A DNA stretch of 64,000 nucleotides from Fuerstiella marisgermanici (lineage in GTDB: Bacteria > Planctomycetota > Planctomycetia > Planctomycetales > Planctomycetaceae): the NCBI RefSeq assembly GCF_001983935.1, contig NZ_CP017641.1, positions 2,418,001 to 2,482,000 of the forward strand. The letters are read 5' to 3'. Positions 23,788 to 45,800 of the stretch are shown piece after piece. The notes under the pieces were generated by a model. That model made no database searches. It saw only the letters and a list, made by a program, of their open reading frames with translations, and was not told where the DNA came from. Every line of letters starts with the position of its first letter. Position 1 is the first letter of the stretch. Made by a program: the position numbers and the translations under genes.

Positions 23788-26349
23788 CTAATTCGTCTGT
23801 CCCAGGCTGATTTCGTGTACGTTTACGAGATTGAGGACGGCGCCGCGTCTGTCGCTTACGCTGACGTAGGGGAGGATTTTCATGAGGATGGCCTCACCTT
23901 TGGCATTGGTCACTTGAGCCGTGTAGCTGCGGTCTGACCGAACGACTTCCTGAAGTAGCTCGTCCAGATTCGTGATTTTTAGGTTGTGAGCGAAGTTGTC
24001 CAGTCGCCTGCCGATGTCGTGGTCGACCAGGTTGAAGTAGTCCGTGGCTGCCTTCGTAAATTTGCGAATCCTGAGATCTTCGTCCATGAAAACGATACCG
24101 ATGTCGGTACTGCTGAGCAGGTTTTCCATGTCTTCAGTGAGCTCATGAAGTTCCGTGATCTTGCGGTGGTTTTCTGAGTTTACGGAGTACAGTTCTTCGT
24201 TGACGCTGTGCAGTTCTTCATTGGTACTCTGAAGTTCTTCGTTGGAAGCGACCATTTCTTCATTTGTGGATTGCAACTCTTCATTGCTGGTTTCCAGCTC
24301 TTCGATTGTGGCGCTCAAACTTTCCTTGGCGTAGATCAATTCGGATTCGATGGCTTCGTAATCCGCACCACGCCCCCGAGCGAATTGCACCTCTTCAGTA
24401 AGCGTTTTTTGAGGCTTCTGGGGGTCACAAAACTCAACAAACCACACAAAATTCTTAGACGAATCACTGCGCAAAGAGCGCACGGTCACGTCGATTTCGA
24501 CCGTGCCGTCAGTGACGGGAAACGCTACGTTGCGAAGAACGAAACGTGTTTCCTGATCCTTCTGAGCGCGAACCAGTGCTGCTCCAATCGTTGTGCGAGC
24601 TTCACCTTCCAGAAGGCGCATGATGTTTCCTGTAAAACGCCCGGTGGCGCTTTTGAGGAATCGGTATCCGTTTCCAAAGACGTGCAGAACATTTCGGCTT
24701 TCGTCCAGCAACAGTCCACATTCGACGAATTCGTTTAGCAATAAATCGTAAGCTTCCAGCAGGCCTGTGAAGCTGAGCTGTTCGGGCTTGTCGCGATTGA
24801 GAATGTTGACCAGGCGGCGCGGCCCGCGAGCGATGGCCTGCGTGATATTGCCGGGATCGACAGCCAACCCCGGCAGGCTTCGAAGCTTGCGGAAGATTCG
24901 CCACGTGCTGTCAATCGTTTCGAATTCATCCTGAAGTTTGCCAGGCGTCTCACTGGCCCCCAGCATCATGATTCCGTTTTGTGCCAGTGCGAAATGAAAT
25001 GCTGCAATCGCGTGGGCCTGAGCGCTCGCTTTCAGATAGATGAGCATGTTGCGACAGCTGACCAGGTGCAATTTTGTAAATGGCGGGTCCTGCATGACGT
25101 TGTGTCGGGCAAACACGATGTGACGGCGAATATCTGCTGAGATGCGGAATTTCCCATCCGGCAGCGGGGAGAAGAATCGCGCCTGGCGCTCATGCGACAC
25201 AAATTCCATTGATCCCGGCGGGTACACCCCATGTGCCGCAAAGTCGAGGGCACCTTGGTGAACGTCTGTTGCAAGGATTTTAAGTCGCACTGGTTTGCCG
25301 TGACGAGCAAAAAGTTCGGTGGCCAACATCGCGATGGTATAGGGTTCCTCACCAGTTGCGCAAGCTGCGGACCAGATTCGCAGTTCCTCACCGGGTTCGA
25401 GCCTGGCGACTATTTTGCTTAAGGGCGTTTGCAGCGAGAAAAAGGCTTCGGAGTCTCGAAAGAACTTCGTGACGCCAATAAGCATGTCGTGATACAGAAG
25501 GTCGAGCTCGGCGTTATCGGCCTGTAAGGTTTTCGCGTACTCGTGGATGGAGCGACTGTGGATGGCCTGAATGCGGCGTTCGATTCGGCGAGCGACAGTT
25601 GTTGATTTGTAATCTGCAAAATTGATTCCGTGTCGCTCGCATAGCAGTGAGAAGATGAGGTTGATCCCTGACATCTCCTCCGTGGTCATGAACTCTTCCG
25701 CTGCCAGCCGCTTCGTAGGATCGATGGCGTGGCGAGAGAGTAGTTGGGCAATTTCTTCGGGCGGAAGCACGAGGTTGACGCATTCTGTCGCGATCGCGTT
25801 GGCCGGCATACCGTCAAACTGTGCCGTGTCAGGAGACTGCGCCACGGTCAGTCCGCCGGCCTCATGGATCGCTCGAATACCCGAAACGCCGTCCGTGCCC
25901 GTTCCCGAAAGGATGACGCCAACCGCACGTTCGCCAAATCCCTGAGCAATAGAATGCAGAAGAAGGTCGACGGGGCGCTGCATCTGATCACGGTCAATAT
26001 CTGTCAGTACAACTCGGCTATCGTCGATCGCGATGTTCTTGCTGCGAGGAATCAGATACACGGTGTTCTGCTTTAGCGGAATGCCCTGCTGAGCATTCAT
26101 TACCTTCATGTGGGTATGGCGGCCAAGGATTTCATCCATCACGCTCTTAAAGTCAGGTGATAGATGCTGGACTACGACAAACGTCAGTCCCGTATCGTTG
26201 GGAAGATGCTGCAGCAGCACTTCCAGAGCCTTCAATCCTCCTGCAGACGCGCCAATGCCCACGATGCAGTGAATAGCGGGATCCTCATCCGGAATCAATG
26301 AATCCTTACGTTCAATTTCTGCGGGTCTGTTCAGGCTGTCGTCTGTCAT
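23788..26349 (-). CDS. CheB-CheR fusion with coiled coil and PAS domain
   Basis: 853 residues. CheB methylesterase domain at about 27-215: catalytic Ser35 in GIGASAGG, His62 in VVQHLSPD, Asp in LSGTGTDG; the CheB receiver domain is missing. CheR methyltransferase at about 225-490: ARRIERRIQAIHS, SAM site IWSAACATGEEPYTIAMLAT, and VSCRNMLIYL. A long coiled coil follows ([20 protein letters not shown], about 640-730), then a PAS_10-like domain. There is no kinase module. It overlaps the next gene by the ATGA at 26346. Known family: methyl-transfer signalling outside classical chemotaxis; no MCP, CheA or CheW is encoded nearby. Confidence 0.93.
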   Translation of the reverse strand: MTDDSLNRPAEIERKDSLIPDEDPAIHCIVGIGASAGGLKALEVLLQHLPNDTGLTFVVVQHLSPDFKSVMDEILGRHTHMKVMNAQQGIPLKQNTVYLIPRSKNIAIDDSRVVLTDIDRDQMQRPVDLLLHSIAQGFGERAVGVILSGTGTDGVSGIRAIHEAGGLTVAQSPDTAQFDGMPANAIATECVNLVLPPEEIAQLLSRHAIDPTKRLAAEEFMTTEEMSGINLIFSLLCERHGINFADYKSTTVARRIERRIQAIHSRSIHEYAKTLQADNAELDLLYHDMLIGVTKFFRDSEAFFSLQTPLSKIVARLEPGEELRIWSAACATGEEPYTIAMLATELFARHGKPVRLKILATDVHQGALDFAAHGVYPPGSMEFVSHERQARFFSPLPDGKFRISADIRRHIVFARHNVMQDPPFTKLHLVSCRNMLIYLKASAQAHAIAAFHFALAQNGIMMLGASETPGKLQDEFETIDSTWRIFRKLRSLPGLAVDPGNITQAIARGPRRLVNILNRDKPEQLSFTGLLEAYDLLLNEFVECGLLLDESRNVLHVFGNGYRFLKSATGRFTGNIMRLLEGEARTTIGAALVRAQKDQETRFVLRNVAFPVTDGTVEIDVTVRSLRSDSSKNFVWFVEFCDPQKPQKTLTEEVQFARGRGADYEAIESELIYAKESLSATIEELETSNEELQSTNEEMVASNEELQSTNEELHSVNEELYSVNSENHRKITELHELTEDMENLLSSTDIGIVFMDEDLRIRKFTKAATDYFNLVDHDIGRRLDNFAHNLKITNLDELLQEVVRSDRSYTAQVTNAKGEAILMKILPYVSVSDRRGAVLNLVNVHEISLGQTN

Positions 26350-29300
26350 GTTCCGAGATCCGAATCTGAATGCATCGCGGACGGAGGCACCGGCGCGAAT
26401 TCGCGCAACGTAAATTTAAAGATACTGCCAACTGGCGAATTTGGTTCCACCCAGATCCTTCCTCCATGCCTGACAACAATGCGCTTGCACAAAGCCAATC
26501 CAATCCCAATGCCTGGTGCATCTTCCTTATAACCCAAACGCTTAAAAATTGTGAACACACGGTCCTTGTGTCGTTCGTCAATTCCGATGCCGTTGTCCGC
26601 AACGGAAATCACCACGAATCCGTCAGCCCGGTGATAGCTGACATTGACCTGTGGCTGTTCCTCAGATCGATACTTGATCGCATTGTCAAACAGGTGGAAA
26701 AATACCGTTTGCAACTGTGCACGATCTCCGGACACGACCGGTAGCTTGTCGACCATAAAGTTCGCCTGATTAAACTCAATGGTGCCCGATAAACTTTTGA
26801 CGGCCTCGTCAAGCACCTCAGATAGTTCCACAGGTGCCATGGGGCGGGCGCGACTGTTAATCCGTGAATACGAAAGCAATCCGCCAAGCATTGTGTGCAT
26901 GGCGTTTGCGCTATCGTGAATGACTTTCGTCGCTTTGGGGATCTGCTCAACTTGACCGGATTCCGCCGCTTCATCAAGAATTTTCGAGTACTGGCTGATG
27001 TGGCGAAGCGGGGCCTGAAGGTCGTGAGACACCGCATATGCGAAGTCTGGCAGTTCTTCATTAATCTGCGTCATCATGCTGCGCTGCGCCTGTTCGGCCT
27101 CCCGCAGAGCCGTGATGTCAGTCGTTGTCAGCACAACGCCCTGGACAGCATCATTCTCTGTGCGGTAAGGCTGCATTCGTTGAAGGTAGACGCTGCCATC
27201 GGCACTCTGAACCTCAACCTCTTTCGCCTGCAAAGTACTCAATACCTCAGCCGCGTCAGCCAGCAGGTTGGGGCTGTCCAGTTTGTAAGCAATATTATCG
27301 ATCGGCCGTCCGATATCCTGTTCCATGACATTGAACGCTGCAGAAATCGCGGGCGTGTACATGCGAATCCGAAACTCATGATCCAGGAAGATCGTGCCAA
27401 TGTCGGTGCTTTTAAGAAGGTTGTCCATGTCACTCGTGAGCTGCGTGAGTTCCTCAATCTTCTGCTTGTGCTCGGAATTCACCGTATAAAGCTCTTCGTT
27501 CACGCTGTGCAGTTCTTCATTGGTACTCTGCAGTTCTTCGTTGGACGCGATCAGTTCTTCATTGGTGGCCTGCAGCTCTTCGTTGCTTGATTCCAATTCT
27601 TCCACGGTGGCCTGCAGCGTTTCCCGTGTGTAGTTAAGCTCACGCTCAAGTTGCAGGATTCGCTCATCAGAACGGTCCTCTCGACGCAATTCTTCGATGA
27701 TTGATGCATCTGCCGCTAGCGTTTCCTGTTGCTTTTCGAGGATTACCAGGTATAGGTTTCGATTCGCTTTCCGATACGGTTCCACCTTGACCTTGTAGAG
27801 TTCGAATTCGTCTGAGTTGTCCATTTCGCGACGAATCCCTTTCAACGTGACTGCCTGATTTTCCTGTCTTGCTCGATGCAGCGCCGTGCTGACTGCGGTC
27901 CGCATTTCCCCATCGAGCATTTTCAACGCGTCTAGTGTGGGGCGACCTTCCGGCTGCACCAGAAGCTTTCTGGCATCACCGAACGTATGCACTAATTCCT
28001 GCTGGTCGTTGATCATCAGGCTGGGTGGGACGTACCTTGTCAGCAGATCCTCCATCGCTGTTGAAACCCATGCGGCCCGTTCTGCTTTGAAGGGTGATGC
28101 GACGATTCCATTGTGTTTTTCGAGCACCACACTGCTTAGCACGGGTGTCATTGGCATTCGCGTTGCTTCCGGCAGACGCACATCGCGACGTTTGCGGTAA
28201 ATTCTCCAGTGCCGATCAATGGTGTCAAATTCAGACTCAAGGTCGCTCACTGATTCACTCGGGCCTAAAAACAGAGTTCCACCTGTCTTCAAGCCAAAAT
28301 GGAAAAGAGACAAGACTCGCTTCTGTACTTTCGGTTCCAGATAGATCAGAACGTTGCGGCAGCTGATAAGATCAAGACGGGTGAACGGCGGATCTGACGT
28401 CAAATCGTTGGCTGCGAAGATGACCTTTTGCCGCACCTCTCGTTTAATGTGGCACAAGCCGTTAGATTTGGTGAAATATCGTCCCTGCAGATCAGCAGGA
28501 ACAACCTCTAACGCCTGAATAGGGTAGACAGCTGTACTTGCGGTTTCCAAAGATGTGCGGTGCACGTCCGTGGCAAAGACCTTGAAGTCCTGGCTGCGGT
28601 TCGCGTTCGCAATTGCCTCGTCAAAAAGAATTGCCATCGAATACGCTTCTTCACCCGTCGCGCAACCGGGAACCCAGATGCGAATTTCTTCACCGGCCTC
28701 CGAACGATCAACCAGCTGTGGAATGATATCTTCCCTCAACCTTCGAAACGCCGCTTCGTCGCGGAAGAACTGTGTAACCTCAACCAGCAAATCCCGAAAC
28801 AGGTAGTCACGTTCTTCTTCATCTTCCTCAATGTGAACGGCATACTTGTCTAAATCGGTAAACCCGCTGATTTGCATACGCCGCTCAAGCCGCCTGTGGA
28901 TAGTCGCCGGCTTGTACAAAGCAAAATCGATCCCATGATGCAGGCGGAACATGTTGAAGATACTAAACAAGCCAGGTTCGCCAGACGGCAGCTTGGTCGC
29001 CCCTTCGACTCGTTGCAGGGCGACTTTGTCTTTCTCTTTTGAATATTCAATCACGCGCACCGCGAGATCATTCGGAGCAAGCGCCACATCGACGACTCCA
29101 GTCTGCATGGCCGCGCGAGGCATACCGTCGAAGCCAGCGGTTTCTGCATTCTGGGCAAGCACGATACCACCGGCTTCGTGGACATCTTTGATCCCACGCG
29201 AACCATCGCTGCCCGTACCTGAAAGCACAATGGCGATGGCTCGCTCCGCCGCATCTTTGGCAAGTGACCGAAAGAAGATATCGATGGGGAGATTCAGTCC

Positions 29301-29639
29301 GCGGTGGCTTTCCTGGTCTGTTAACAGAAGGCGACCTTCGGACAGCGCCATGTTTTTTTCCGGCGGGATCAGGTAGATGGAGTTTGCTTCCACCTCCATC
29401 GAATCAATGACTTTATGAATGGCCATCCGAGTATGGCGGGCCAGAAGTTCGTCCATCAGACTTTTGAAGTCCGGGGACAGATGCTGGACCACCACAAATG
29501 CCATTCCCGTGTCGACGGGCATGTGGTCGAAGAACTCTTCGATGGGATTCAGCCCGCCAGCCGACGCTCCAATCCCAACAATAAAAGTTGGTTGCGAAGC
29601 GGATGGTTCAACGGTCGTCTCAGGAGTGGTTGCTGTCAT
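26346..29639 (-). CDS. CheB-CheR-PAS-histidine kinase fusion
   Basis: 1,097 residues. CheB domain (Ser26 in [16 protein letters not shown]), CheR domain ([41 protein letters not shown]), the same [20 protein letters not shown] coiled coil as its neighbours, a PAS_10-like domain, then HisKA with phospho-His near residue 870 ([20 protein letters not shown]) and HATPase ([37 protein letters not shown]). It could couple methylation-type input to phosphorylation. Its stop overlaps the following CheB-CheR gene, so both are made together; 155 bp separate it from the response regulator gene upstream. Confidence 0.93.
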
Positions 29640-29794
29640 GATCTATCCAACCCGACAGCCTTCCGCCGGGGATTTCAGGGGCATGAAAATGCAGGTGATA
29701 AAGTGCGAAAAAATTCCAACGCAAGCGTTCTGCGGATCGATCACAGGGTCTCGAAAGGCGTTCCTGGCAATCCGCACTTCGCAGCTTCACATGG

Positions 29795-30244
29795 TTAATC
29801 ATTCCGGGGCGGAGGTAACGCGACAATCTTGACCCAGAAGTGGCTGACCTGCTGAATCACGTGGAAGAATTGGGTCAGGTCCACGGGCTTCACGATGTAG
29901 TTGTTTGCTGCGAGACCGTAGGACTGCAAAATGTCTTTGTCGTAGTTTGATGTTGTGAGGACGACGACGGGAATGACCTTCAGATTTTCGTCATTACGCA
30001 TCTCTTTCAGAACGTCACGCCCGTCCATTCGCGGCATATTCAAATCCAGTAATATGAGATCAGGTCGGCTCGCGTCCCGGTAGTCACCTTCTCTCCGCAG
30101 ATACGCCATCGCCTTCTCACCGTCCGACACGTGATGGACGTTGTTCTGCAGACGGCCTTCTTTCAACGCCTCCAGCGTCAATTCGGCATCCGTCACGCTG
30201 TCCTCAACCAGCAGGATTTCAATCACCTTTTCGTTTTCAAGCAT
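29795..30244 (-). CDS. single-domain response regulator, Rcp1-like
   Basis: 149 residues, receiver domain only: acidic pocket LLVEDS (Glu/Asp 14-15), phospho-acceptor Asp67 in LILLDLNMPRMDG, Thr in VVLTTSNYD, Lys in NYIVKPVDL. The inserted loop RREGDYRDASRPDLIL is typical of Rcp1/phytochrome-partner regulators. The start lies inside the 3' end of the MASE1 kinase gene (8-bp overlap), making that kinase its natural partner. With no output domain it probably passes phosphate on or acts by protein contact. Confidence 0.93.
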   Translation of the reverse strand: MLENEKVIEILLVEDSVTDAELTLEALKEGRLQNNVHHVSDGEKAMAYLRREGDYRDASRPDLILLDLNMPRMDGRDVLKEMRNDENLKVIPVVVLTTSNYDKDILQSYGLAANNYIVKPVDLTQFFHVIQQVSHFWVKIVALPPPRND

Positions 30245-33200
30245 AACGTTGTTCTTCCGCAGCTAACCTTAATGTGAAAACGCTTCCCTTGCCTGGAGTG
30301 CTGGACACAGAGATCGATCCGTTGTGACGTTCAGCGATTCGTTTGCAGATGGCGAGACCGATGCCCGTTCCCGGAATCTCCTCACGCCGGTGCAGCCTCT
30401 TAAAAATCGTGAATGTCTGTTTGATATGATCCGCTCTGATTCCGATACCATTATCTTCCACAGAAACGTCCCAAAATGATTCCGTCCGGGTCGCAAAAAT
30501 GCGAATCCGGGGCGGAATATTCTGCTGGCGAAACTTGATGGCATTACTGATCAGATTCTGGAACAACTGGGCAAGCAATTGCGCATCTCCTGCAACCATC
30601 GGAAGATCTTCGACAGTAATTTGCGCGCCACTTTCTTCGATCGGCAACTGCATCTGCTCCATGGCAGCCGCAACGACGTCCTTCACGCAGATCACCTTTA
30701 ACGGACGTTTATCGTTTCCAACTCTGGAAAATTCAAGCAAGTCCTCGATGAGAGTCGTCATGCGGCTGGCCCCTTCCACCGCCTTCGCAATGTACCCGCG
30801 AGCAGTTTCGTCCAGTGAATCGCTATAGCGGCGTTGCAGCAGCTGACAGAACCCGCCAACAGCACGCAGAGGTTCCTGCAAATCGTGTGAAGCGACATAG
30901 GCGAATTGTTCAAGATCGGAGTTACTTTCGAGCAGCTGCAGTTCTACATTTTTGCGATGGGTGACATCGTAGATAGAACCGGCCATTCGAAACTGCTTGC
31001 GATCGTCGTCCCGCAGCATCGCTCCCCGAGCGCGAAACCATCGGTACACGCCGTCCTTCCGTCGCATACGAACTTCAAGGTCCATAGGCTGACCGTTCTT
31101 CTGATGCTGCTGAATCTGATCCCAGAAACTGTCGCTGTCGTCAGGATGAATTCGCTGCTTGAAGCTGTCGAGTTCGTTGGGAAACCCGTCGAAGTCGTCA
31201 GGAGCATAACCCAACAACTCTCGAAATCGCGTGCTGTAGTCGACGGAATCTGTCAGCAGGTCCCAGTTCCACGCTCCGTCCGTGACGCCCATTAACTCGA
31301 TGAGTGCTTCAAGTTTTGCACGCGTTTCCTGCAGTTCGGTCACGTCAACATGTGTGCCGACCATGCGATTGGGCTTGCCGTCAGAATCGAAGGACAGTCG
31401 CCCCCGAGACAAAATCCATCGATAGCTGCCGTCTTTGTGTTTCAAACGAAACGTGGATTGATAGTCAGGTTTTCTTTTGACCAACGCATCCTGCGCCACG
31501 GCGCGAGCTTCGTCCGCATCATCTGGGTGCAGGCGAACTTCCCAGTCGTTGAATGTTTTGAGGGTTCCCGGTGATTCGCCCAGCTGACTGTGCCAATGGT
31601 CGGAAAAATGCACCTCGCCGGATAGCACGTCCCAGTCCCACAGGCCGACATTGCCACCGGAAATCGCCAATTCCAGACGAGCCCTCGCTTCGTCAAGTTC
31701 CTTTTCTGCGGCCACACGAGCGGTGATATCGCGAACGAACGAACATGCGAATTCCTCGCCCTCAAATTCGATGTGATGGATCACAATCTCAACAGGAAAT
31801 ATCGTGCCATCACGACGCTCATGCCGCATGGTCAACATCAGGCGTTTGTCCTGGTGGATCCTTGGCCAGATTTCGGCTCGAAACTTTTCGACCGATTGAA
31901 GGTCCGGGTTGATGTCAGCGACTGTTAACTTCAGGAGATCTTCACGCGAATACATGAGCCGAATGCATGCTTCGTCATTGACGTAAAAGATGTGGCCGTC
32001 CGGTTTCACCCACAGCACCGCGTCAGCGGCTGTATGCAAAGCCGTTTGACTCCGATACAGATCTCTTTCTGCGGCTTTTCGGGCAGAAATGTCCTGGACC
32101 GAAGCGACGATGACTTCTTCTCCGCCGAAGTCGACTAAAACCGTTTGGAGTTCGCAGTCGAAAGTCGTGCCGTTACGTCTTCTGTATGTTGACTCAAGGC
32201 GTAGCTCTCCCTGGTGCTTCGTTACGTTCCAGTGACTGGCCCATGCGTCGTCCGGAAAGTCCGGGTTAACATCTGCCATCGACATCTGGCAAAGTTCTTC
32301 GCGCGAATAACCCAGATAACGGGACGCCAGTTCATTGGCGTATGCAAAGGAACCATTTTCGCGAATCCAGAACTGAGCGTTCGACGCTTTTTCAATCGTA
32401 AACTGACTCATCCTCAATCGGTGTTCCGCTTCCTGACGTTCCCGAACAGTGGCGGCCAGGGTCAGGAATGTTGTGGCTGAAACAAACAGGTAACTCTGCA
32501 ACGCGAAAGCACGTTCCGGCAGTGCTTCGATTCCACCGAAAAACCCCTTACCTCCGGCTGTGTCAGCGACGGCGATTAATGCCAGAACAAACAATCCACT
32601 TGCCGCTCCAACAACCTCAAACCGCATGACCAGCCACAGCAGAATGGGAAACACGATGTAGGCCATTCGTTGAAGCTGAATACCGAAAACATAGTGAGAC
32701 GCGGCAGCCAGCGCAATCAGCAGTCCAACGTAGATCCCCTTTTCAAGCGGTCCCGTCAGTACGGCAAACCGTCGACGTCGCTGCTTCCAGTGTGCGTATG
32801 CATCGATGGCGATCCAGACAAACGGGAAGGTCACAAGCATCCCCACGTAATCCGCGCTCCACCAGATTCGCCAGGTGTTGGCATAGCTTGCGTCAAACGC
32901 CTTCCAGACGACAGCCGCTCCCAGCGTTGCCCCAGCGGCGGTACTGAGCACGCAGACCAGCAGCACAAACGTCAACGCGCTGCGGACTGTCTGCAGTATT
33001 TTCGATGCCGAATCAAATCGACGAATCAAAGCGACGGCGATCATCGCTTCTGTTGTGTTCGCGACCCAAAAGCCGAGGCTCACGAAGAGGTGTTTGTCGT
33101 GCAACCCCACGTCCGAGGCGATATTTGCCGTGAGTGTGGCGAACAGCAGAATGGCCCAGTAGCGTGGTCGGACAGCAAGGTACGTTGCCACAGCCAGTCC

Positions 33201-33389
33201 AGCGGGCAGCCAGAACGTGGCGAAATAGCCCGAAAACGACATCGCATGGCCAATCTCGGCAGCTATCAGGTAACCAAGTGAGACGCAGCAAAACAGGGCC
33301 CATCGACTTCTTGTTGATAGCGGCGGGACGTCGGTTGCGGACACGTTTGTTTTCTGAGGCTGGTTGTGAATAAAGCGAAGCGAAAACAT
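30237..33389 (-). CDS. MASE1-PAS(4)-histidine kinase
   Basis: 1,050 residues. The N-terminal ~300 residues hold about eight membrane helices of the MASE1 sensor type (ALFCCVSLGYLIAAEIGHAM; GYFATFWLPAGLAVATYLAV; IAVADTAGGKGFF). Four PAS domains follow (about 330-800), the last two with the PAS_3 patterns RWILSRGRL and YRWFRARGAM plus PAC tails, then HisKA (phospho-His near 835, YVASHDLQEPLRAVGGFCQL) and HATPase (ISNAIKFR, VEDNGIGI, GTGIGLAICKRIAERHNGS). The kinase end closely resembles Cph1-type kinases. Overlap with the single-domain regulator gene indicates a cognate pair. Confidence 0.93.
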   Translation of the reverse strand: MFSLRFIHNQPQKTNVSATDVPPLSTRSRWALFCCVSLGYLIAAEIGHAMSFSGYFATFWLPAGLAVATYLAVRPRYWAILLFATLTANIASDVGLHDKHLFVSLGFWVANTTEAMIAVALIRRFDSASKILQTVRSALTFVLLVCVLSTAAGATLGAAVVWKAFDASYANTWRIWWSADYVGMLVTFPFVWIAIDAYAHWKQRRRRFAVLTGPLEKGIYVGLLIALAAASHYVFGIQLQRMAYIVFPILLWLVMRFEVVGAASGLFVLALIAVADTAGGKGFFGGIEALPERAFALQSYLFVSATTFLTLAATVRERQEAEHRLRMSQFTIEKASNAQFWIRENGSFAYANELASRYLGYSREELCQMSMADVNPDFPDDAWASHWNVTKHQGELRLESTYRRRNGTTFDCELQTVLVDFGGEEVIVASVQDISARKAAERDLYRSQTALHTAADAVLWVKPDGHIFYVNDEACIRLMYSREDLLKLTVADINPDLQSVEKFRAEIWPRIHQDKRLMLTMRHERRDGTIFPVEIVIHHIEFEGEEFACSFVRDITARVAAEKELDEARARLELAISGGNVGLWDWDVLSGEVHFSDHWHSQLGESPGTLKTFNDWEVRLHPDDADEARAVAQDALVKRKPDYQSTFRLKHKDGSYRWILSRGRLSFDSDGKPNRMVGTHVDVTELQETRAKLEALIELMGVTDGAWNWDLLTDSVDYSTRFRELLGYAPDDFDGFPNELDSFKQRIHPDDSDSFWDQIQQHQKNGQPMDLEVRMRRKDGVYRWFRARGAMLRDDDRKQFRMAGSIYDVTHRKNVELQLLESNSDLEQFAYVASHDLQEPLRAVGGFCQLLQRRYSDSLDETARGYIAKAVEGASRMTTLIEDLLEFSRVGNDKRPLKVICVKDVVAAAMEQMQLPIEESGAQITVEDLPMVAGDAQLLAQLFQNLISNAIKFRQQNIPPRIRIFATRTESFWDVSVEDNGIGIRADHIKQTFTIFKRLHRREEIPGTGIGLAICKRIAERHNGSISVSSTPGKGSVFTLRLAAEEQRYA

Positions 33390-33556
33390 CGTGGCAGTCG
33401 CGATTAAATTCCTCAGAGACTACAGATCGTTCAATGTATATCAGGATGTGTCAGGCCATTGTTTCTTGACTTCTGTGTTCTGCTGCTTAGCCACTCACCA
33501 AACTGGTTTTTTACTTTAGGAATCCGTCGACACTACGAAGTGATTTACGTTCAGTA

Positions 33557-35218
33557 TCAGCGTTCACCACATTCCAGCCTGCTTCCGATCATCTCCAAAA
33601 GTGCATTAAAGCGGATCGGTTTAGAAAGAATCTGTGCCTGATGTTCGTCAAGGAACTGCCGATCGACGACAGAATCGCCATGTCCGGTTAAGAATACAAC
33701 CGGTGCTCCGGCAAATCGAACATGAAACTGTGAGCATACGTCTTTGCCACTTTTCCGGGGCATAATCGCATCAGTCAGTAGCAGATCAATCCTGCCTTCA
33801 AAAGATTCAATAAGCTCCAGTGCATGCAGGCCATCGTTCGCTGTGATCACGTTGTAACCTGCATTCAGCAACGTACAGGACAGGACTTCACGAATCGCAG
33901 GCTCATCCTCAGCGACCAGAATCGTCCCGCTGCCGTGCGCATAGGCGTTGTGTGAATCTGGCGACTCTGCAACATCGTCCGAAGGCGACTCCGTTGAAAG
34001 GGGCAGGTAGATCGTAAAGATGGCGCCGTGGCCCAATCTGGAATCAACGGTGATTCCCCCGCCATGTTGCCGCACGATTCCGTAAACAATAGACAGTCCC
34101 AGGCCAGTTCCCGATTTCGTCTCTTTGGTCGTGTAGAAGGGGTCAAACAGTTTTCTGCGAGTCGCATCGTCCATGCCTTCGCCGTCATCGCATACGGTAA
34201 TTACGGCGTAAGGTCCCGGCGGAAGTCGTGTTCCATCGTCGAGAAGCAGATCCGATATTTCGCAGTGGTCGGCACGCACTTGCATGCAACCACCTTGAGG
34301 CATTGCATCCCTGGCATTCACGCAGAGGTTCAGCAGCGCTTGTTCGATGAGATTGCCATCCGCGTTAATCGGCAGCGAAGTGCGCGGTACGTGTGATTCG
34401 ATGGAAATACATTCTGGCACCGTGCGAGCCGCCATGTCCACGGTGTTCTCGACTAATTCGCGGAGGTCAACTGTCCTTGCTGTCAGCGAAGACCGGCGAC
34501 TGAACGCCAGTAGCCGCCCAGTCAGGTCGACACCACGTTGAGCTCCATCCAACAGCTTATCGATCAGCATTGTGGATTCGCCTCTGGCGGCAAGCTCTGT
34601 TTTCGAAAGCTCTGCACATCCAACAATAACCTGCAAAATATTGTTGAAATCGTGTGCGATGCCCGCGGACATCTCATTCAGAACCTCCATTTTTTGCGAC
34701 TGCCGCAACTGACTCGCGAGAGCCCGTTGCTTAGCCTCTGCCGCTTTTTGCCGTGAGATATCGATGACGGCAAAACGGTACTCTCCTTCAGACGTCGCCG
34801 TCGATTCAACGCGAATCCAAACCTCAGCGACGTCTTCCGGAGTCTTAAGTTGAAATTCGGCAACGACTGGAACGTCGGATGACGCGACGGACCACATGTG
34901 TTGGCGGAACGTCAGGTTGGATTCGCGTGTAAGAAATCGTTGCAGGGACACACCTTCCTGCACTGGTGCAATGTGTCCAAGCAGTGTGCGAGCTCGTCGA
35001 TTCGCAACTGTGATGACTCCGGACCTGTCCAGAGAAAGGTAGCCAACAGGCGCGTCATTCCATAGTTCGTGAAATCGCTCTGTCGCGTGATTCAGTTCCT
35101 CATGAGCGCGGCGGAGTTCGGTATTTTGTTGCTGTAATTCAAACTGATGTTGCTGCAAATCTTCGATCAACTGTTCACGGGTCGAAGTGGTGCCGGATTT
35201 TGTCTCGCTAACATTCAT
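33557..35218 (-). CDS. PAS-histidine kinase-receiver hybrid
   Basis: 553 residues. N-terminal coiled coil (QQHQFELQQQNTELRRAHEE), a PAS domain (about 45-160, APVGYLSLDRSGVITVANRR), HisKA with His189 in SAGIAHDFNNILQVIVG, HATPase (NLCVNARDAM, CDDGEGMDD, GTGLGLSIVYGIVRQHGGG) and a C-terminal REC domain (VAEDEPAIREVL; phospho-Asp in LLLTDAIMP; Lys in LSKPIRF). The HDFNN box and layout match the NtrB-like/RcsC-like hybrid class. The start at 35218 has the SD GGAAGGAAG. It lies 60 bp downstream of the next kinase gene on the same strand. Confidence 0.93.
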   Translation of the reverse strand: MNVSETKSGTTSTREQLIEDLQQHQFELQQQNTELRRAHEELNHATERFHELWNDAPVGYLSLDRSGVITVANRRARTLLGHIAPVQEGVSLQRFLTRESNLTFRQHMWSVASSDVPVVAEFQLKTPEDVAEVWIRVESTATSEGEYRFAVIDISRQKAAEAKQRALASQLRQSQKMEVLNEMSAGIAHDFNNILQVIVGCAELSKTELAARGESTMLIDKLLDGAQRGVDLTGRLLAFSRRSSLTARTVDLRELVENTVDMAARTVPECISIESHVPRTSLPINADGNLIEQALLNLCVNARDAMPQGGCMQVRADHCEISDLLLDDGTRLPPGPYAVITVCDDGEGMDDATRRKLFDPFYTTKETKSGTGLGLSIVYGIVRQHGGGITVDSRLGHGAIFTIYLPLSTESPSDDVAESPDSHNAYAHGSGTILVAEDEPAIREVLSCTLLNAGYNVITANDGLHALELIESFEGRIDLLLTDAIMPRKSGKDVCSQFHVRFAGAPVVFLTGHGDSVVDRQFLDEHQAQILSKPIRFNALLEMIGSRLECGER

Positions 35219-35278
35219 ATTCTTACTTCCTTCCGTGGCTGAATTTGAGGTATTCCATCACGCACTTGAGCCCAACGG

Positions 35279-38200
35279 CTACACGTTGGTTTTTGCCGGA
35301 CCTCGCTGAATGTCCGCCAGTTCGGACAGAATTGTGTCGAGTGATTCGGGGTTGAGTGGCTTCACAAGATGGAGGTCAAATCCCGACTCGCGCACCGCTT
35401 CCCTGTCTGCATCCTGCCCATAGCCGGTTAACGCCACCAGGCGAACATCGTCGAAGGACGAATCGTTTCGAATCCGACGAGCGACTTCGTGCCCATCCAT
35501 TTCGGGCAGACCAATATCGATGATCGCAGCGTCGGGACGAACCTTCCGGATCAATTCAAGGCCTTCCGCACCGTCGCGTCCTTCGTGTACCGACAAACCT
35601 CGCAGTGCCAGCAAAGTTGCCAGCATCTCTCTCGCGTCATCAATATCTTCGACAAGAACCACTTGACGAATCGCGACTGACGGGCGCGCTACCGGGCCCG
35701 CGACAGCCAGCTGCGCCGATGTGCTTAGCGGTAATGTGACGGTGAACGTGCTGCCTCTGCCGGGCCCATTGCTGCGAGCCGTGACTTTTCCCTTGTGAAG
35801 TTCGACGACAGCCATCACCAAAGTCAGCCCAACGCCCATGCCACCATTGGATCGATCCAGAGTCTCATCTGATTGATAGAACAGGGAGAAAATCTCCTGC
35901 AGCTTGTCTCGCGGAATTCCAACGCCAGTATCCTGAACTTCAATCACACCGAACCCGCCTTCCGCTTGCAATGACAGTCTGATGTCTCCACCAGCCGGCG
36001 TGTATTTGATGGCGTTGGTCAACAGGTTGACCGTTACCTGTTCAAGGCGAGCGGGATCACCGTCGACCACCAGTGCCTCCGTTGGCATTTCAACTGAGAA
36101 ACTTAGGTCTGCGTCGTTTAAGGAACGACGAACAACGGATATCGCCTGCTCAACAATATGCCGCAGGTCGACCTTGCCTGTCCGCAATTCGATCTTTCCG
36201 TGAGTGATTCGCGAAACATCCAACAGGTCGTCCAGCAATCGCGACATCTGATTCAACTGACGCCTCACAACCTCGAGTGCCTTTCGAGTGATGGATTCGT
36301 CTGCTGCGCCACTCGCCAGAACTGCAGTCGCATTAGTGACCGCTCCCAACGGATTTCGCAGTTCGTGGGACAGCATTGCCAGAAACTGGTCTCGCCTGGC
36401 AACGGCCTTCTGAACCCCTTCTTCGGCCAGCCGACGATCCGTAACGTCTTCAAACGAACCCGCCATGCGCACCACTCGGTCAGCACCAAAGCGGTCGGCA
36501 GAGCCTCGCATGTGAAACCAACGGTATTCTTCAGATGCACCGTGTTCCATGCGGTACTCGATATCAAACGGAGTGCCGCGCTCAAGGTGACTTGCCAACG
36601 CGTCCATCACGAGTTGCTCATCTTCTGGATGAATGAGTTCACGCCAGTAGGAAACAGTCAGCTCCTGTTCCGGTGGGCGTCCAAGCAGTGCGTACATCCG
36701 ACTGGAACACCATATCGGTTCCTGCTTCACATTTTGCCAGTCCCATATTCCCGCATTGCTGCCTCGCACCGCAAGATCAAACCGTTCTTCGCTTTTCTTG
36801 AGTGCCTCAGTCGCCACCTGTAAGGTCGTAACATCCACCAGCGTGACGACAGCTCCTTCGACTGTGCCGCGGGAAAGATAGGGAAAGATACGCAGCAGAT
36901 ACCATTGACTACTCTGATCCTTAATTTCGCGATGAACAGGCTGTTCTGTCCGAATGACTTCACGAATGGCTTCGGTCAGTGTGGCGTCCTGCAGCTTGTG
37001 AGTGAAAGAATCGATTCTCCTACCGATGTCCTGGGGGATTAAATTAAACAGTTCCGCGATACGCGGCGTGAACCGACGTAACCGAAGATTGGAATCGAGA
37101 AACAAAGTGTGGACGTTAGTTGTCGTCAGCAGGTTGTCAATGTCGTCATTTAACTCCGTCAGTTCGTCGATCTTCCGCTGATGTTCCGCATTCACGGTAT
37201 ACAGCTCTTCATTAACGGAATGTAGTTCTTCGTTGGTGCTCTGCAGCTCTTCATTCGACGCTGTCATCTGTTCATTTGTCGACTGCAATTCTTCGTTGGT
37301 TGATTGCAGTTCTTCAATGGTCGATTGCAGATTGTCCTGCGTGAACTGCAGCTCACGTTCGAGGTGTTCGACGTTGCTTAACTCAGCTGCAGAAAGCAGC
37401 GTGGGGCTGACCTCCGCATCCGCTGAGATGTCTGTCACCTGCAATGTAATCAGGACTGTTTGCGCTTCTTCATCACCGCTTTCGAAAGTTTCCGCCGTCA
37501 GTGCGATGCCTGTGACCTGGTTGTTAATTTCGCATTTGACCGGTTCAACGGTGACTGGATGTTTGTCGCGTCGCAAGTGGATCAACGCCAACGATAAGTG
37601 AGAACGCAGCTCCGGGTGAATCACCTGAAGCACGTCGTTGGTCGGACGTCCATCGGAGAAAACGAGGTACTTCCCAGCGCCGCCAAGGACGTGCAGAACT
37701 TCCCGTTTTTCATTCACAAGTAGCGCGGGGCAGTTAAGGCGTTTCAGCAGCTGGTCGTAGGTCTTCAGCAGCTGACGCGTGGCGTCTCGGTCGGGCGGCG
37801 GAGTGGTGTCAGTTGTATGCGTCCATGCCACACGGTTTAAAGTCCCTCGAATGCCTGTGCTGGGGACTTCGCGGTCCTTGCGAAAGATTCTTGACGTTTC
37901 GTCGATTGCCTGAAATTCACTGCGCAGGTTGCCAAGGCTTTCGCTTCCGCCCAGACAAAGAGTTCCTCCCGTTTTCAAGCCAAAATGAAACAGCGAAAGG
38001 ACCCGTTGCTGAGTCGGTGGCGTGAAATAAATCAACAGATTGCGACACGTGATCAGATCCAGCCGAGTGAACGGTGCGTCACGAATCACGTTGTGCGGTG
38101 TGAACACAACCATCTTGCGAAGTTCCGGCGCCACATGAAATCCGTCCTGACGCTCGATAAAGAATCGTTCGCGACGTTCAGGTGTGACATTGCCGAGTTG

Positions 38201-39310
38201 ATCGTGCGAATACACACCGCGTCCGGCGGCCGCCAAAGACTGTTCGTGTACGTCGGAGGCAAAAATTCGGATTCGCTTCTCAATACCTCGCTTCGAAAAT
38301 TCTTCTGCAAGAAGGATTGCTAAAGAATACGCCTCCTCACCGGATGCTGTGCCCGCGACCCAACAACGAAACTCTTCCTCTTCGTGAAGGTTGTCTACGG
38401 CAGAGGGGATGACATCAAGCTGCAGCCGCTCGAAGACTTTGCAGTCACGAAAAAAGTCGGTCACACCGATAAGCATGTCGTGATAAAGAAGGTTGATTTC
38501 ATCTCCCTCTTCGGTCAGCGAATCCGCGTAGCTCTCCAGGTCCGAAACGCCTGAGAGCTTGACTCGGCGCTCAACGCGACGAGCAATCATGTCTGATTTG
38601 TAGTGTGAAAAATCTAATCCAAATTTTTGATGCAAGAGATGGAAAATCAATCGCATTGACGGGGCCATATGATCTACCAGCTCCATGCTGTCAGAATTCC
38701 TTTCCTTTTCGTGCTGTGGCCATTCCTCATTGGCCATGCGATGAAGGGTCTTCGCAATCTCACCCGGACTTAAGATAAGGTCTACAACGCCCGTGTTACA
38801 TGCACTGCGAGGCATTCCGTCGAAGTTGGCAGATTCGAGCGATTGAACAATCACGACGCCGCCGGCTGCCGCGATGTCTCGACCCCCCCGGGATCCGTCG
38901 CTGCCGGTTCCGGAAAGAATGATGCCAATCGCGTTCTCGCCAACGTTTTGCGCGAGCGACCGGAATAGTTCGTCCACGGGAAACGCCAGGCTGGTTCCTT
39001 CGGCGCGTTCGGCCAGCAGCAGTTTGTCATTCGAAATGATGACCTGCTTGCCGGGTGGTAGCAGGTGGATGCGATTTGCTTCCACCGGCATACCATCTTC
39101 GATCAACGTCACCTGCATCTGTGTGTGTCGCGACAGCAGTTGGTCCATGATGCTGTCGAAGTCAGGCGAAAGGTGCTGAACCACGATAAACGCCATTCCG
39201 CTGGTCGGGTTCAGCTCGTCGAACAGTGATTCCAACGCATTGAGGCCACCAGCAGAGGCACCGATTCCAACGATCTTAACTGGCTTCAAGTTGCCATCAT
39301 CCGATCCCAT
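35279..39310 (-). CDS. CheB-CheR-PAS-histidine kinase-REC fusion
   Basis: 1,343 residues, the largest signalling protein here. CheB domain (Ser19 in [16 protein letters not shown]), CheR domain ([43 protein letters not shown]), coiled coil ([20 protein letters not shown]), PAS_10-like domain, a PAS_3 domain ([14 protein letters not shown]), HisKA ([20 protein letters not shown], His near 970), HATPase ([37 protein letters not shown]) and a C-terminal REC domain ([34 protein letters not shown]). A strong SD (GGAGG) precedes the start at 39310. It is divergent from the CsrA-REC gene 372 bp away and is the most plausible kinase for it (inference). Confidence 0.94.
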
Positions 39311-39682
39311 GTGCGACCTCCAGCGCGATGCATTTGCGTAGCGTGATGCGAAAGTACGCGATCGTCAGCTCACATCAATTCGAGCGGGTTTAATCTATAT
39401 AAATCGCGAGCAGCTTGGCGAGCCCCAGGTTGAATTCCGTACTGAATACCGGGGAATCCAAGCATTTCCCCACAGGAGTGGGAGTAGTTACCCCCACAGG
39501 CACGACCAATTCGAGTGAAAACACTCACTCGAATTGGTATGGAAGACCCGATCTTCAATTTTTTTCTTAAAAGTTTCCCTTGTCGACTAGAAACCCTTCC
39601 ATCAATATTCCTCCGTCTAGGGATCGGACACAACTCAGCAGCATGGATGCCACAAGGGCCACCCCAGGGGAAGGAATCCGTA
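39311..39682. promoter_or_regulatory. divergent regulatory region / 5' leader of csrA-REC
   Basis: 372 bp between the divergent hybrid-kinase and CsrA-REC genes. It has a perfect 13-bp inverted repeat (separate entry), a weaker GAAGA/TCTTC hairpin with a T-run at 39542-39565, and several GGA triplets of the kind bound by CsrA proteins (e.g. cacaggagtgggag, ggtatggaag, ggggaaggaat); one GGA is part of the SD at 39671-39677. CsrA-type autoregulation is an inference from these motifs. Confidence 0.5.
39505..39538. promoter_or_regulatory. 13-bp perfect inverted repeat
   Basis: ACCAATTCGAGTG (39505-39517), loop aaaacact, CACTCGAATTGGT (39526-39538). In DNA it could be an operator for a dimeric regulator controlling both divergent genes; in RNA it would be a stable hairpin 145 nt ahead of the csrA-REC start. 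Confidence 0.7.
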
Positions 39683-40423
39683 ATGTTAGTGATGTCACGC
39701 CGCAAGGATCAAAAAATTGTATTTCCAGCATTAGGGATTACAGTCACTCTGCTGAACGTTAAGGGCAACACCGCACGTGTTGGAGTGGATGCACCAAGCG
39801 ATATCGTGGTGCTACGCGAAGAGATCGCTGGCTCAGCCGCCGTCCCCGCAATCAACTCCTCCGCCGCCAACTCTCACAAGCTGCGGAACGTTCTGAATTC
39901 CATCAACCTGTACGTGATGGTCTATCAGCAACAGGTCGATGCGATGCTTCCGGAGGCAGCCGCCGCGACGTTCATGAAGATGGTTGAGTACCTTGAAAGG
40001 CAGACGGAGCAGGGAGCCGTCAATTTCAGAGTCGACAACGACGAGTGCCCCGGAATCGATGGGCGAGTGATGGTTGTCGAAGACGATCCCGACCAGCGCG
40101 ACCTGCTGTGCAGCCTACTGGCGATGCAGGGACTGGATGTTGATGGCCATTCTGACGGTCAGGCTGCACTGAAGGAACTGCAGGCTGGATGTAAACCGGA
40201 CATTGTTCTGCTGGATTGGTCGATGCCAGCGTTCGGCGGTGAATGGCTTGTCCCAAAAATTCGACGAGAGTTTGGCAGCGACGCTCCAAAGCTCTTCGTT
40301 CTAAGTGGAGCCGAAACCACGACGCGTGCTTATCGTGAAAGCGTCGATGCCTGGATCTCAAAGCCGCTCAATCAGGATGCACTAATCGCTCGCATCCGAT
40401 CAATTTATCCGGCCGCCTGTTAA
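39683..40423 (+). CDS. CsrA domain fused to H-box-like helix and REC domain
   Basis: 246 residues from the ATG at 39683, preceded by AAGGAAT. Residues 1-50 match the RNA-binding protein CsrA: MLVMSRRK, ITVTLLNVKGNTARVGVDAP, and VVLREEI, where Arg45 aligns with the RNA-contacting Arg44 of E. coli CsrA. Residues 60-110 are helical and contain SHKLRNVLNSI (His65), which looks like the HxLRNxLN H-box of histidine-kinase dimerisation domains; no ATPase domain follows. Residues 127-246 are a complete receiver: acidic pair Asp134/Asp135 (VVEDDP), phospho-acceptor Asp178 (IVLLDWSMPAFGG), Ser208 (LFVLSGAE), Lys227 (WISKPLN). An mRNA-binding regulator controlled by phosphorylation is inferred; all parts are intact. 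Longer upstream in-frame starts lack an SD. Confidence 0.9.
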   Translation: MLVMSRRKDQKIVFPALGITVTLLNVKGNTARVGVDAPSDIVVLREEIAGSAAVPAINSSAANSHKLRNVLNSINLYVMVYQQQVDAMLPEAAAATFMKMVEYLERQTEQGAVNFRVDNDECPGIDGRVMVVEDDPDQRDLLCSLLAMQGLDVDGHSDGQAALKELQAGCKPDIVLLDWSMPAFGGEWLVPKIRREFGSDAPKLFVLSGAETTTRAYRESVDAWISKPLNQDALIARIRSIYPAAC

Positions 40424-41364
40424 GACATACGGAATTGGGGTTCGTTGTGCTAGTCTCAGGATGAGGCAACTCAGAGCATGGATGCACCGATGGCATAACG
40501 TACCTCGACCCCTGCGGGGACGGCGAATAAAAACGCCGTCCCCGCTTCTGTTTCCGCCACCCCGCCGAGTACAACCAAATGACGCGGCAAATTGTGGAGC
40601 CACAGCAACGCACATTCCGCCCCAGCCAACGGGTGGATCTCACTGCTTAACCGTTACTCCACGGACGACACCCGGCGGAAAAACACAGACCGCCCCACGC
40701 CGACTTCCCCGGCCACGACTGCAGCTCATCCATGATAGATTCGCGGCCGTCGTCTGATCGGCTGCGTTTGGAGACTACGTGAAGCATCAACCATGCCACG
40801 CAGTACGCCCGCAGCATCGTCGCACCAAACGATGCGTGCCAATTTCGCTGTCAGACGTTTTCCCGCGCGGTCGTGGATAACGCAGGACATTCACGCTGCA
40901 TCTGGTTTTCGGCCGTGACAAGGCATACGTGTCGCAATCCGCGCGAGCAACGGCGCATACATGCTTTTCTTTCACAAAGAAGGCCGCTGACTACCTTACG
41001 AGAATGGTCCCGTTCGGCCTGCTCCGATTCCTTGGCGCGTTTCGTTCGCGTGGTTCAATGTGGTTTCTCGCGCATCCACAACTTTGGCGCTGTGTGAATC
41101 GTCGAGTAGCCCTGATCCGCGGCCAGCGACTCGGCATTCTAAAAAAATTCGCAACTTTCGGATGTGCCCACTTTCCGCAGGGAGCTACCAGGAGTTTGCG
41201 GCGAAATTTGAGACGCATGGTGGTCCGGTGCTCGCAGTGGTTGTCGGCTGAAGCATACTATCCGGACGTTGAGAAAATCCGTTGCGGCGAAAACCCTGTC
41301 TTAGGGGCGTGTTTGCACTTTGACCGAACTGTTGGCACGGACAATGGACTGATCGCAGTGAACC
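40424..41364. other. intergenic region, no convincing gene
   Basis: About 940 bp. Apart from the hairpin at 40514-40545 nothing is supported. An open frame at 40929-41378 (+) has a basic, Trp- and Cys-containing composition unlike neighbouring proteins and no recognised domain, so I do not call it. Confidence 0.45.
40514..40545 (+). terminator. strong GC hairpin after csrA-REC
   Basis: Perfect 12-bp stem GCGGGGACGGCG / CGCCGTCCCCGC with an 8-nt loop (aataaaaa), 90 bp after the stop codon. Only a short pyrimidine tail (ttctgtttcc) follows, so it is a likely but not canonical terminator. Confidence 0.65.
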
Positions 41365-42863: not shown

Positions 42864-45800
42864 TTATCGCAGTCGGTCTCGCCGTTCGTCTTTCAGCCAG
42901 GAATCGAGATCAGCCTCAGCGAGTTTAAGGGCAAGCTTTGCGACAAGAGAAACCGTTGAGTGTTTGTGGGTCGTTAACTCTGTCCAGACGCCTATTTCGC
43001 GGTGATGTTTATTCGGCACTTCGGCGAAATCCATTGTGAAGTATCGGCGCGAAGCATGCGTGATGTCTTCGGGGGACACTCCATGGCTCGTCGCCACGCT
43101 GACCAGTGAAATCCATACAGGATCTGGATGCCTTGCTAAAGGAATGTCGTGGAATTGTTCTAATTCGTCGATTTCAAGCAGGCGAGCATAGACTTCTGCA
43201 GAGTCTCCCACGAAGACCATAGTCAGTTTCGTGGCGTGGTACGCGTCCGGACTGACTTTCGCGATCAATTCACATCGCATTTCTTCCGTCAGATCAACTG
43301 TAGCGATTTTAAAAGGCTCAACTCGTATGTAACGAGATGAGCGGTCGGTCTTCCTGCACTTATCTTCCAGCCAGGCCGTACGGAACTCCTGATCGGTCTT
43401 GAGTGCCTGCTCTAGACACCATTCGTCAGTCAGATGTTGTGTTGCGGCATACAGCCAGATTGCTCTAAGAGACTCTGGCAGTGGATGTTTCTCTCTGGCA
43501 TGCCATAGGCCGTGAAGAGCGTGCGACACAACGTCGGCATCGTCGTGCGTTAGCAAAGCTTCAATTGTGGCAGCTTGCAGTTCGTACATCATGGCTACGT
43601 GGTCGACCAGCTTTGGCACGTGGACGCATTCAGCGACTGCCAGCTGTCGAATATCGTCTGGCACATCACAAACGAGTCCCACCTGAACGGCTTCGTATCG
43701 AAAGTGGCCGTCCGTTAAAAGTGTTCTCAGTCGCTCAGTGGATCCTGTCTCTTTCCGCCGCAATGCCGTCACAAGTAGGTGCGTGATCAGATCCGGTCTC
43801 GCGCGCTCGGCGATGATCGCGTCAATCCAGCAAATCGTGTTGACGACGTTGTCGGCGATCGAATCGACAACCGTCTTGCAATGATCCGGCCAAGGGTCGA
43901 GCATCTGCTCTGACTCGGCGATGCACCATTGCACCCTCTGAATAACTTCCTCGGGGTTGTGGTCAGCCCATTGTTTACCTGTTGCTTTCGCATGCTCCCA
44001 CTGCCGTTGTTGTTCGTCGATTTTCCATTCAGTGTCGCCGCGTGGGCGGCCCGGAAAGAGTAGCGCGAATGTCTCATCAATGTCGATATCGAGAGAAATC
44101 TCTCCGTGTCTCGCGAGTATATTCAGAGACGTCAAAACACCTGGACGGTCAGCGGCCAGTTCACTCGTGCGAGTCAAAACAGCCGTCCCGGAACGGTTGA
44201 AGACAGCTCGTTGTTCGTCGGATACGCCGATCATTCCAAAATGAGGAAATAGCCACGCTTTGACGGCCCGTAAAACCGGCTTCCATTTGTTCAGACGCGC
44301 AGGATCCAGTATTTCAAAGATCTCGTCCAAAAACGCTTCTAAGCGCTCGAGATCTTTTGGCAGCAAGCCGCCACGACGCATCGTGAACTGCATTCGGTCG
44401 GCGGGATTCTGTTCCGTATCGTCGAATTGCGGTGAAACAATGATCGGGATAAGCGGGGCTGCCAGATTGATGTCACCGCCCTGCGCAAGATAGCTCGTGA
44501 ACGCTTCAAGCGTTGCCTTGCGACGGTCAACAGCTTCCCGCCCCGGAAAGCCGGACTGCGCCCAATCACGAATGCGGCGGATGGGGTGATCCGGAGCCTG
44601 GTTCTCGGGGCGTTTGTCCAATGGTGCTGCGGCAATTAGGTGCGGAATCGTGCTTTCAGGGCTCGACTGCAACAGGACGTCAGAAAGCTTCAGGATGAGA
44701 TTCGGACGATTCTGAATTACCCACTCCGCATGTTCAGAGGTCGAGCAGACGTATGCTCGCCAGACTGCGTCGCAATCCACATCTACAACCATTCGACGCA
44801 GCTCGTGGGCTGAAATCCGAGCACCACGGGCATGCGCGGCAATCACAGTATCCACAAGGCCGGTTGAGAGCCCAATTTCATTGATGGCGTGTGTAATCGG
44901 CACGGCTGCAGCGGAATTGAAGAAGATGTCTCGTACAAGAACACCTCGTAAGAGTTCGGGGACAACAATCAACCTCCCGTCGCCAAAGTCGACGATGAGT
45001 CCACCGAGTGCAAGATCGCGCACAATTCGTCTCACTTCAGGCTCCGACCGCCCCAACACACTTGCCGCTGAAACAATAGGCACGCCATCAGACCCACCGA
45101 GACTTAAACAGGCCAGAGCTTCGGTCGCTGATTCGCCAATCAAATCGGAAAATCGCGCCCTAACCCAACTCGCCAGCTTCTCTCCGGTCCATACCTCATT
45201 CCAGTCCGTTTTCGTTTTTTGCAGACACGCGTCGATGAGCATCATTGCTCGTCCTGGGCATCCCGATGATTGATGCACGATCATGTGAAGAAGGTGGTTG
45301 GGACCATGAATGCCAGATGCCTTGATAATCTCGACGAGTGTGTTGTCTGCCAGTTCAGGCAGCTTCAGAATTTTCGAGCCCGCAATCCCCAGCGCAGTAG
45401 CAAGCTGATCGACGTCTCCGGGCCAGCTGTCAACAATGATTTCGAAACTCAGATCGTGGTCCCGGCGATAGCTCAGCAGGAACCGTATCGAATCCAGGTA
45501 CAGAGCGCCGTCCTCGATAAGGACGGTATCCGGTTGTTGTTGAGTAATCGCATCGGCAATTGAATGCTCGTCGTTACCAGTCAGGAAAAATGCATTCGTA
45601 TGCCGCGCGTACTGTTGAAGCAGAAAGGTTTTGCCCATGCCAGGCTGGGCAGAAATAAGCTTGTCTCCGTCGGTCTGCTGTAGCCACGCAAGCTCATTGT
45701 CTCGCCCGATCAGACCGGCGCCAAAATCGGAGCGGCACGACCGTGGCAACGGTGACAGCGCCGAGAGCTTCGTCGTGCCCTGCGGTGGTCGCTCAGTCGC

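Follow-up and report, generated by a model that had tools for sequence, protein, structure and literature searches.

Most characterized two-component systems act through transcription or through enzymes. A class of response regulators with CsrA as the output domain was reportedly described by Galperin in 2006. By 2007, CsrA was named among the RNA-binding outputs of response regulators (excerpt of PMC2222644, citing Galperin 2006), and CsrA is in this sense already known as an output. In the titles and abstract openings of papers, mostly from outside the subscription journals, we found no description of a hairpin within a CsrA-receiver protein, of its linkage to a kinase, or of an experiment on such a protein. 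A 2025 review names the CsrA of E. coli as an orphan response regulator (excerpt of PMC12471899). This entry looks like an error, because the CsrA chain 1y00 has 61 residues.

Here we describe a CsrA-receiver protein encoded in a 64,000-nucleotide stretch of the genome of Fuerstiella marisgermanici (the window). A first-pass annotation of the window had proposed that CsrA is fused to a receiver domain through an H-box-like helix. Pfam searches, alignment, and the recurrence of the protein across genomes confirm this, and the residues named at that time (Arg45, His65 followed by KLRN, Asp178, Ser208, and Lys227) are all present in the translation. The annotation also suggested that a two-component system would act post-transcriptionally through this protein. 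The sequence supports this in part: there is a CsrA output with its RNA-contact arginine, an intact receiver, a helix that matches HisKA, and a hybrid kinase as a neighbor, and from these we infer phosphotransfer, RNA binding, and a coupling between the two. We put the probability at roughly 55% that the protein is an RNA-binding response regulator that is fed by a CheB-CheR-PAS-HK-REC hybrid kinase, possibly with a phosphotransfer module of its own.

The fusion protein and its distribution

The gene (39683-40423, + strand) translates to 246 amino acids and a stop codon. The longest open reading frame begins at a GTG at 39515 and has 302 amino acids. We consider 39683 to be the likely start because the start methionine of CsrA is conserved and because AAGGA precedes it at 39671-39675. 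Pfam finds CsrA (PF02599) at residues 1-49 with 48.7 bits (the cut-off is 27) and Response_reg (PF00072) at residues 129-239 with 59.6 bits (the cut-off is 30.2). The features of the locus are collected in the table. The terminator-like site is the one such site found, versus a mean of 1.6 in shuffled sequences, so there is no excess over shuffles. Two other open reading frames in the window were noticed by eye: 21338-23530 (+ strand, 730 amino acids) looks like a large serine recombinase, and 42864-46334 (- strand, 1156 amino acids) has a Walker-like GMGKTF stretch.

Features of the locus, with coordinates in the window
Feature	Coordinates	Strand	Evidence and remarks
CheB-CheR-PAS protein without a kinase-domain match	23788..26349	-	Pfam
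CheB-CheR-PAS-HATPase protein without a REC match; HisKA just below cut-off	26346..29639	-	Pfam
Single-domain response regulator, same cluster	29795..30244	-	Pfam
MASE1-PAS-HisKA-HATPase kinase, same cluster	30237..33389	-	Pfam
HisKA-HATPase-REC hybrid kinase, same cluster	33557..35218	-	Pfam
CheB-CheR-PAS-HisKA-HATPase-REC hybrid kinase, divergent neighbor and proposed partner	35279..39310	-	Pfam; adjacency of homologs
ANGGA site (AAGGA 39671-39675) at Shine-Dalgarno position, possible short hairpin	39667..39679	+	hairpin moderately supported
CsrA - DHp-like hairpin - REC protein	39683..40423	+	246 aa; translation, Pfam, alignment, AlphaFold2
CsrA domain, residues 1-49; Arg6 and Arg45 kept	39683..39829	+	Pfam, alignment to 1y00/7yr6, conservation
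Two-helix hairpin, residues 61-115, HisKA/DHp-like; His65 codon 39875-39877, Asn69	39863..40027	+	AlphaFold2, hhalign 96.6%
Receiver domain, residues 128-241; Asp178 codon 40214-40216	40064..40405	+	Pfam 59.6 bits, receiver fold matches
Terminator-like stem-loop 3' of the gene	40514..40545	+	consensus match only

An AlphaFold2 model of the monomer, built from 54 sequences, has a mean pLDDT of 84.2 and a pTM of 0.53, so the placement of the domains relative to each other is uncertain. In the CsrA part, the model has strands at 11-14, 19-27, and 30-36 and a short helix, and the outer strands of CsrA are unformed; as a check of the CsrA fold, the monomer thus forms only part of the CsrA strands. 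Helices at 61-86 and 90-115 follow, and then a receiver fold. Across residues 61-110, the pLDDT of the hairpin by 10-residue block is 70, 87, 94, 92, and 83; it is 45 for residues 111-120, and it lies below 50 for residues 113-121 (the end of the second helix). The best 50 of 1672 Foldseek matches are receiver or receiver-like chains, with no CsrA chain among these 50.

Of 98 genomes searched, one of them that of the window itself, at least 25 carry the full architecture, at 26 places, with the split matches of G023 and of G077 each joined as one frame. Among the matches listed for the seven other genomes that belong to the window's genus, none is full-length, which makes the distribution of the gene patchy. 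We also sampled 392 genomes from the phylum and scored six candidates in each; full-length proteins were among the matches listed in 16 genomes, all from the family or the class of the window's genome; for genomes that share only the phylum, the matches listed were to the receiver or partial. We also scanned public genomes, keeping 80 of 100 relatives. In 61 of these loci (L061-L121) the match extends well past the receiver, and in 59 of the 61 it starts at residue 1; the other 19 (L122-L140) match only over the receiver and the segment that precedes it. Apart from L062, whose title says just "bacterium," each of the 61 carries a planctomycete title. Because the search patterns lie within the receiver, fusions to other receivers would have been missed. 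With L114, L117, and L118 excluded, there are 59 full-length public copies in 58 loci; this count includes near-duplicate loci, and some of the genomes are shared with the 98-genome set. The carriers include Blastopirellula marina DSM 3645, Bythopirellula polymerisocia, Lacipirellula limnantheis, and one strain of Rhodopirellula baltica. Since the architecture recurs in these other genomes, the fusion is not a chance occurrence, and the concern that it might be an assembly artefact can be set aside.

We aligned 54 of these proteins, including the window's and leaving out near-duplicates (L079, L091, L092, L107, L110, and L113). Arg6 of the CsrA domain and Asp134, Asp178, and Lys227 of the receiver are identical in all 54; residue 133 is always acidic (E or D) and residue 208 is always Ser or Thr.

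A HisKA-like hairpin and its kinase neighbors

Judged by its profile, the linker between CsrA and the receiver is a domain of its own, and a HisKA (DHp)-like one. We used hhalign to compare a profile of the linkers (the 53 rows that have His65) with a profile of HisKA from the neighboring kinases, which gave a match of 96.6% (E = 5e-10) with His65 aligned to the phospho-accepting histidine. Forty column shuffles of this comparison gave 4.6% at most. Column shuffles break the helix periodicity; a scan of 32 windows along a profile of 35 kinases is the better control, and there the two windows that contain HisKA matched the linker (96%) and the other 30 scored below 1%. When the linkers are scanned alone against Pfam, HisKA is also the most frequent of their weak matches (8 of 21 scanned, from a total of 26; best E = 0.0018), and SPOB_a matched one linker (0.053). 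The window's own linker, scanned alone, matched neither HisKA nor SPOB_a. Among the 26 full proteins, HisKA was found in 6 (best E = 0.014) and PDE8A_N in as many. Given the profile match and the 32-window scan, a simple coil is unlikely.

The residues that are kept in the hairpin suggest what it might do. In HisKA kinases, kinase activity alone depends on an acidic residue, and phosphatase activity alone on an Asn or Thr (excerpt of PMC3510030). The residue after the histidine is acidic in 86 of 86 HisKA rows from kinases versus 18 of 53 linkers, and the Asn at His+4 is kept in 50 of 53 linkers. Because the acidic residue has drifted and the phosphatase-type Asn has been kept, the hairpin resembles a DHp domain without its autokinase function: it looks like a module that has lost autophosphorylation and kept the handling of phosphate. 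The gap from the hairpin to the receiver is 12 residues, and no CA or CA-like domain follows the DHp. Without a CA domain, the hairpin may act like a pseudo-kinase phosphotransferase without being a member of that class.

The genome of F. marisgermanici also encodes a hairpin-receiver protein with a THRLRNQLN motif and without CsrA (L052:8263-8979, + strand), so the hairpin-receiver pair occurs apart from CsrA. In its 17 kb locus, no other open reading frame matched the window's kinases at E = 1e-10.

It is possible, though we doubt it, that the hairpin is a dimerization element only, and that a kinase phosphorylates Asp178 directly so that the receiver alone controls CsrA. Two second copies show that the fusion can exist without the hairpin or its key residues. 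In R. baltica, L112:277-834 has CsrA and REC without the hairpin (it is the sole aligned copy that lacks His65), and in G083, L048:3945-4706 has kept its length and lost both the His and the Asn; each of the two shares its cluster with a complete copy. However, if the linker were plain, one would not expect His65 to be retained in 53 of 54 proteins and Asn69 in 50 of 54 with variable residues between them, and a hairpin for dimerization alone would not be expected to match HisKA and nothing else among the 32 kinase windows.

The first-pass annotation had also pointed to the adjoining hybrid kinases as a possible source of phosphate, and homologs of the adjoining kinase are often adjacent to the fusion in other genomes. 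A hybrid-kinase homolog, mostly with CheB-CheR-PAS-kinase-receiver architecture, lies within 600 bp of 38 of the 59 public copies. For 15 copies there is none within 600 bp even though flanking sequence is present (two of these have a homolog at 631 and 750 bp), and the other 6 copies are at contig edges. If the distance is extended to 800 bp, there are 40 kinase neighbors, and 39 of them match through the receiver: 29 have CheB-CheR and a receiver, 10 have a receiver without CheB-CheR (including one fragment at a contig edge), and 1 has CheB-CheR without a receiver match. These counts include near-duplicate loci. In a second set of genomes, partly the same, 20 of 25 copies have a kinase within about 700 bp (judged by eye).

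The family has 77 CheB domains in 41 genomes, ordinary ones included, so adjacency to a CheB-CheR kinase should rarely arise by chance. (The window's genome has five CheB domains, three of them in the window.) The neighbors are convergent with the fusion in 16 cases, upstream in 14, downstream in 5, and divergent in 5. That the adjacency is kept in all orientations favors a functional link over a frozen gene order. Because nearly all of the neighbors end in a receiver, one would expect a histidine intermediate ahead of the last receiver, and the 39 of 40 neighbors that match through the receiver suggest a phosphorelay that would need such an intermediate.

In the window, the minus strand of 23788-39310 carries six signaling genes. 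Three encode CheB-CheR proteins, of which one has no kinase match, one has no receiver match, and one is complete. The content of this cluster is similar to that of L048.

The resemblance of the hairpin to the HisKA domains of the neighboring kinases would also fit another arrangement, in which the hairpin and the DHp bundle of a partner kinase pair up and the protein serves chiefly as a scaffold or as an inhibitor of the kinase, with CsrA anchoring it to RNA or to other CsrA dimers. The genome has 11 further CsrA matches with which mixed dimers could form. We think that this is unlikely: a scaffold would have no need of the receiver active site, which is kept in 54 of 54 proteins.

The CsrA domain and the leader of its own gene

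The CsrA part of the protein aligns with the solved CsrA chains 1y00 and 7yr6, with Arg45 on their arginine; in the alignment, Arg45 is the equivalent of Arg44 in E. coli. In E. coli CsrA, the R44A substitution makes RNA binding defective and abolishes regulation (excerpt of PMC7652899). The first-pass annotation had named loss of the RNA-contact residues across homologs as a reason to doubt the proposal; there is no such loss, as Arg45 is kept in 53 of the 54 aligned proteins and Arg6 in all of them. Residue 4, which is an RNA contact in CsrA as Leu4, is Met in the window's protein and Leu in 46 of 54. Pfam's CsrA model matches all 26 aligned fusion proteins that were scanned, at E up to 0.5. 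The CsrA part of the window's protein falls below the NCBIfam equivalog cut-offs for csrA (38.3 bits versus 70.1, and 43.2 versus 73), so it is a CsrA domain but not a standard CsrA. It also has a loop with Phe-Pro that is longer by one residue, and this loop is conserved in the fusion family. The hairpin and receiver are fused at the position of the C-terminal extension of other CsrA proteins, and it is via the C-terminal extension that FliW acts on CsrA (excerpt of PMC7652899).

The high-affinity motif for CsrA is an ANGGAN loop, and the csrA gene of E. coli is autoregulated by inhibition of translation (both in excerpts of PMC7652899). Autogenous control of the fusion gene would fit, given that E. 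coli csrA regulates itself. We found ANGGA at the Shine-Dalgarno position of the fusion gene itself in 56 of 60 leaders (32 AAGGA, 15 ATGGA, 6 ACGGA, and 3 AGGGA; near-duplicate loci are included), versus 19 of 174 control starts at first ATGs, which are uncurated, so the contrast may be overstated. Further copies have ANGGA at the start in 15 of 17 cases. The Shine-Dalgarno consensus and ANGGA overlap; the variants ATGGA and ACGGA pair less well as Shine-Dalgarno sequences and still retain the CsrA motif. Among the 33 CheB-CheR kinase genes of these loci, 9 have ANGGA close to one of their candidate starts, which is no clear signal. It precedes the start of 7 of the 11 solo CsrA genes in the window's genome, in a slightly wider search window. 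(These eleven CsrA matches besides the fusion are L001-L008 and L055-L057. Together with the fusion that makes twelve CsrA domains, an unusual number for one genome.)

The ANGGA site is firm, and support for a hairpin around it is mixed. In folding of 45 non-redundant leaders from the first set, the mean probability of finding the GGA inside a hairpin loop is 0.574, versus 0.340 if the flanks are shuffled and 0.383 if the arms are exchanged; 0.574 was never reached in 100 rounds of either. In 34 control starts that have ANGGA, the probability is 0.369. The hairpin was not supported in 15 further leaders, where folding gave 0.236 versus 0.296 with shuffled flanks, and the observed value was reached in 148 of 200 rounds. 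In a test of ungapped arms, the observed value was reached in 0 of 5000 rounds for the first set (43 leaders), 180 of 5000 for the further leaders (13), where support is thus weak, and 0 of 5000 for the pooled leaders (55). Both the folding and the arm tests ignore the relatedness of the leaders.

The sub-threshold NCBIfam scores and the longer Phe-Pro loop could be read to mean that the CsrA domain has lost RNA binding and is now a protein-binding or dimer module, but the conservation of both arginines, of which the Arg45 equivalent is needed for RNA binding in E. coli, and the ANGGA at the gene's own start make this very improbable.

Proposed mechanism and comparison with known systems

We propose that the fusion, probably as a dimer, works as a response regulator with mRNA binding as its output. 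The hybrid kinase (35279-39310 in the window) would autophosphorylate and then hand the phosphate on to the receiver at its own C terminus. From there, the phosphate would reach Asp178 via His65 of the DHp-like hairpin, much as in Spo0B, ChpT, or PhyT. Alternatively, it might reach Asp178 straight from the kinase, with Asn69 of the hairpin aiding its removal. We infer that phosphorylation would rearrange the hairpin and the receiver, and that this switch would alter the binding of CsrA to ANGGA sites over the ribosome-binding sites of target mRNAs. The ANGGA site at the start of the gene would make the fusion gene itself one such target, under autogenous control. If this is correct, then in planctomycetes a single step leads from a sensor kinase to translation. 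Furthermore, with its conserved His and Asn and no ATPase domain, the hairpin is a natural test case for what a DHp hairpin does alone.

Among known regulators, the ANTAR proteins (AmiR, NasR, and PdtaR) and Galperin's CsrA class likewise join a receiver to an RNA-binding domain. ANTAR proteins act mainly on transcription termination, whereas the fusion has CsrA at its N terminus, separated from the receiver by a HisKA-like hairpin. The fusion is like CsrA and RsmA in the sequence of the domain, in its equivalents of Arg6 and Arg44, and in its possibly autogenous ANGGA site. Solo CsrA is controlled by small RNAs or by the binding of FliW or CesT (excerpt of PMC7652899), while the fusion has its receiver built in.

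Spo0B is a pseudo-kinase phosphotransferase. The hairpin is like Spo0B, ChpT, and PhyT in offering a phospho-accepting histidine where a receiver needs a histidine intermediate (excerpts of PMC9981736 and PMC5898713). ChpT is a separate protein with a degenerate CA domain (excerpt of PMC9981736); in contrast, the fusion has the hairpin only, joined to its presumed acceptor. Finally, the fusion is like the BarA-UvrY-CsrB/C-CsrA cascade in that a two-component system would govern the activity of CsrA. In that cascade, the regulator makes small RNAs that sequester CsrA (excerpt of PMC7652899), whereas in the fusion, control would be direct, without the small RNA step.
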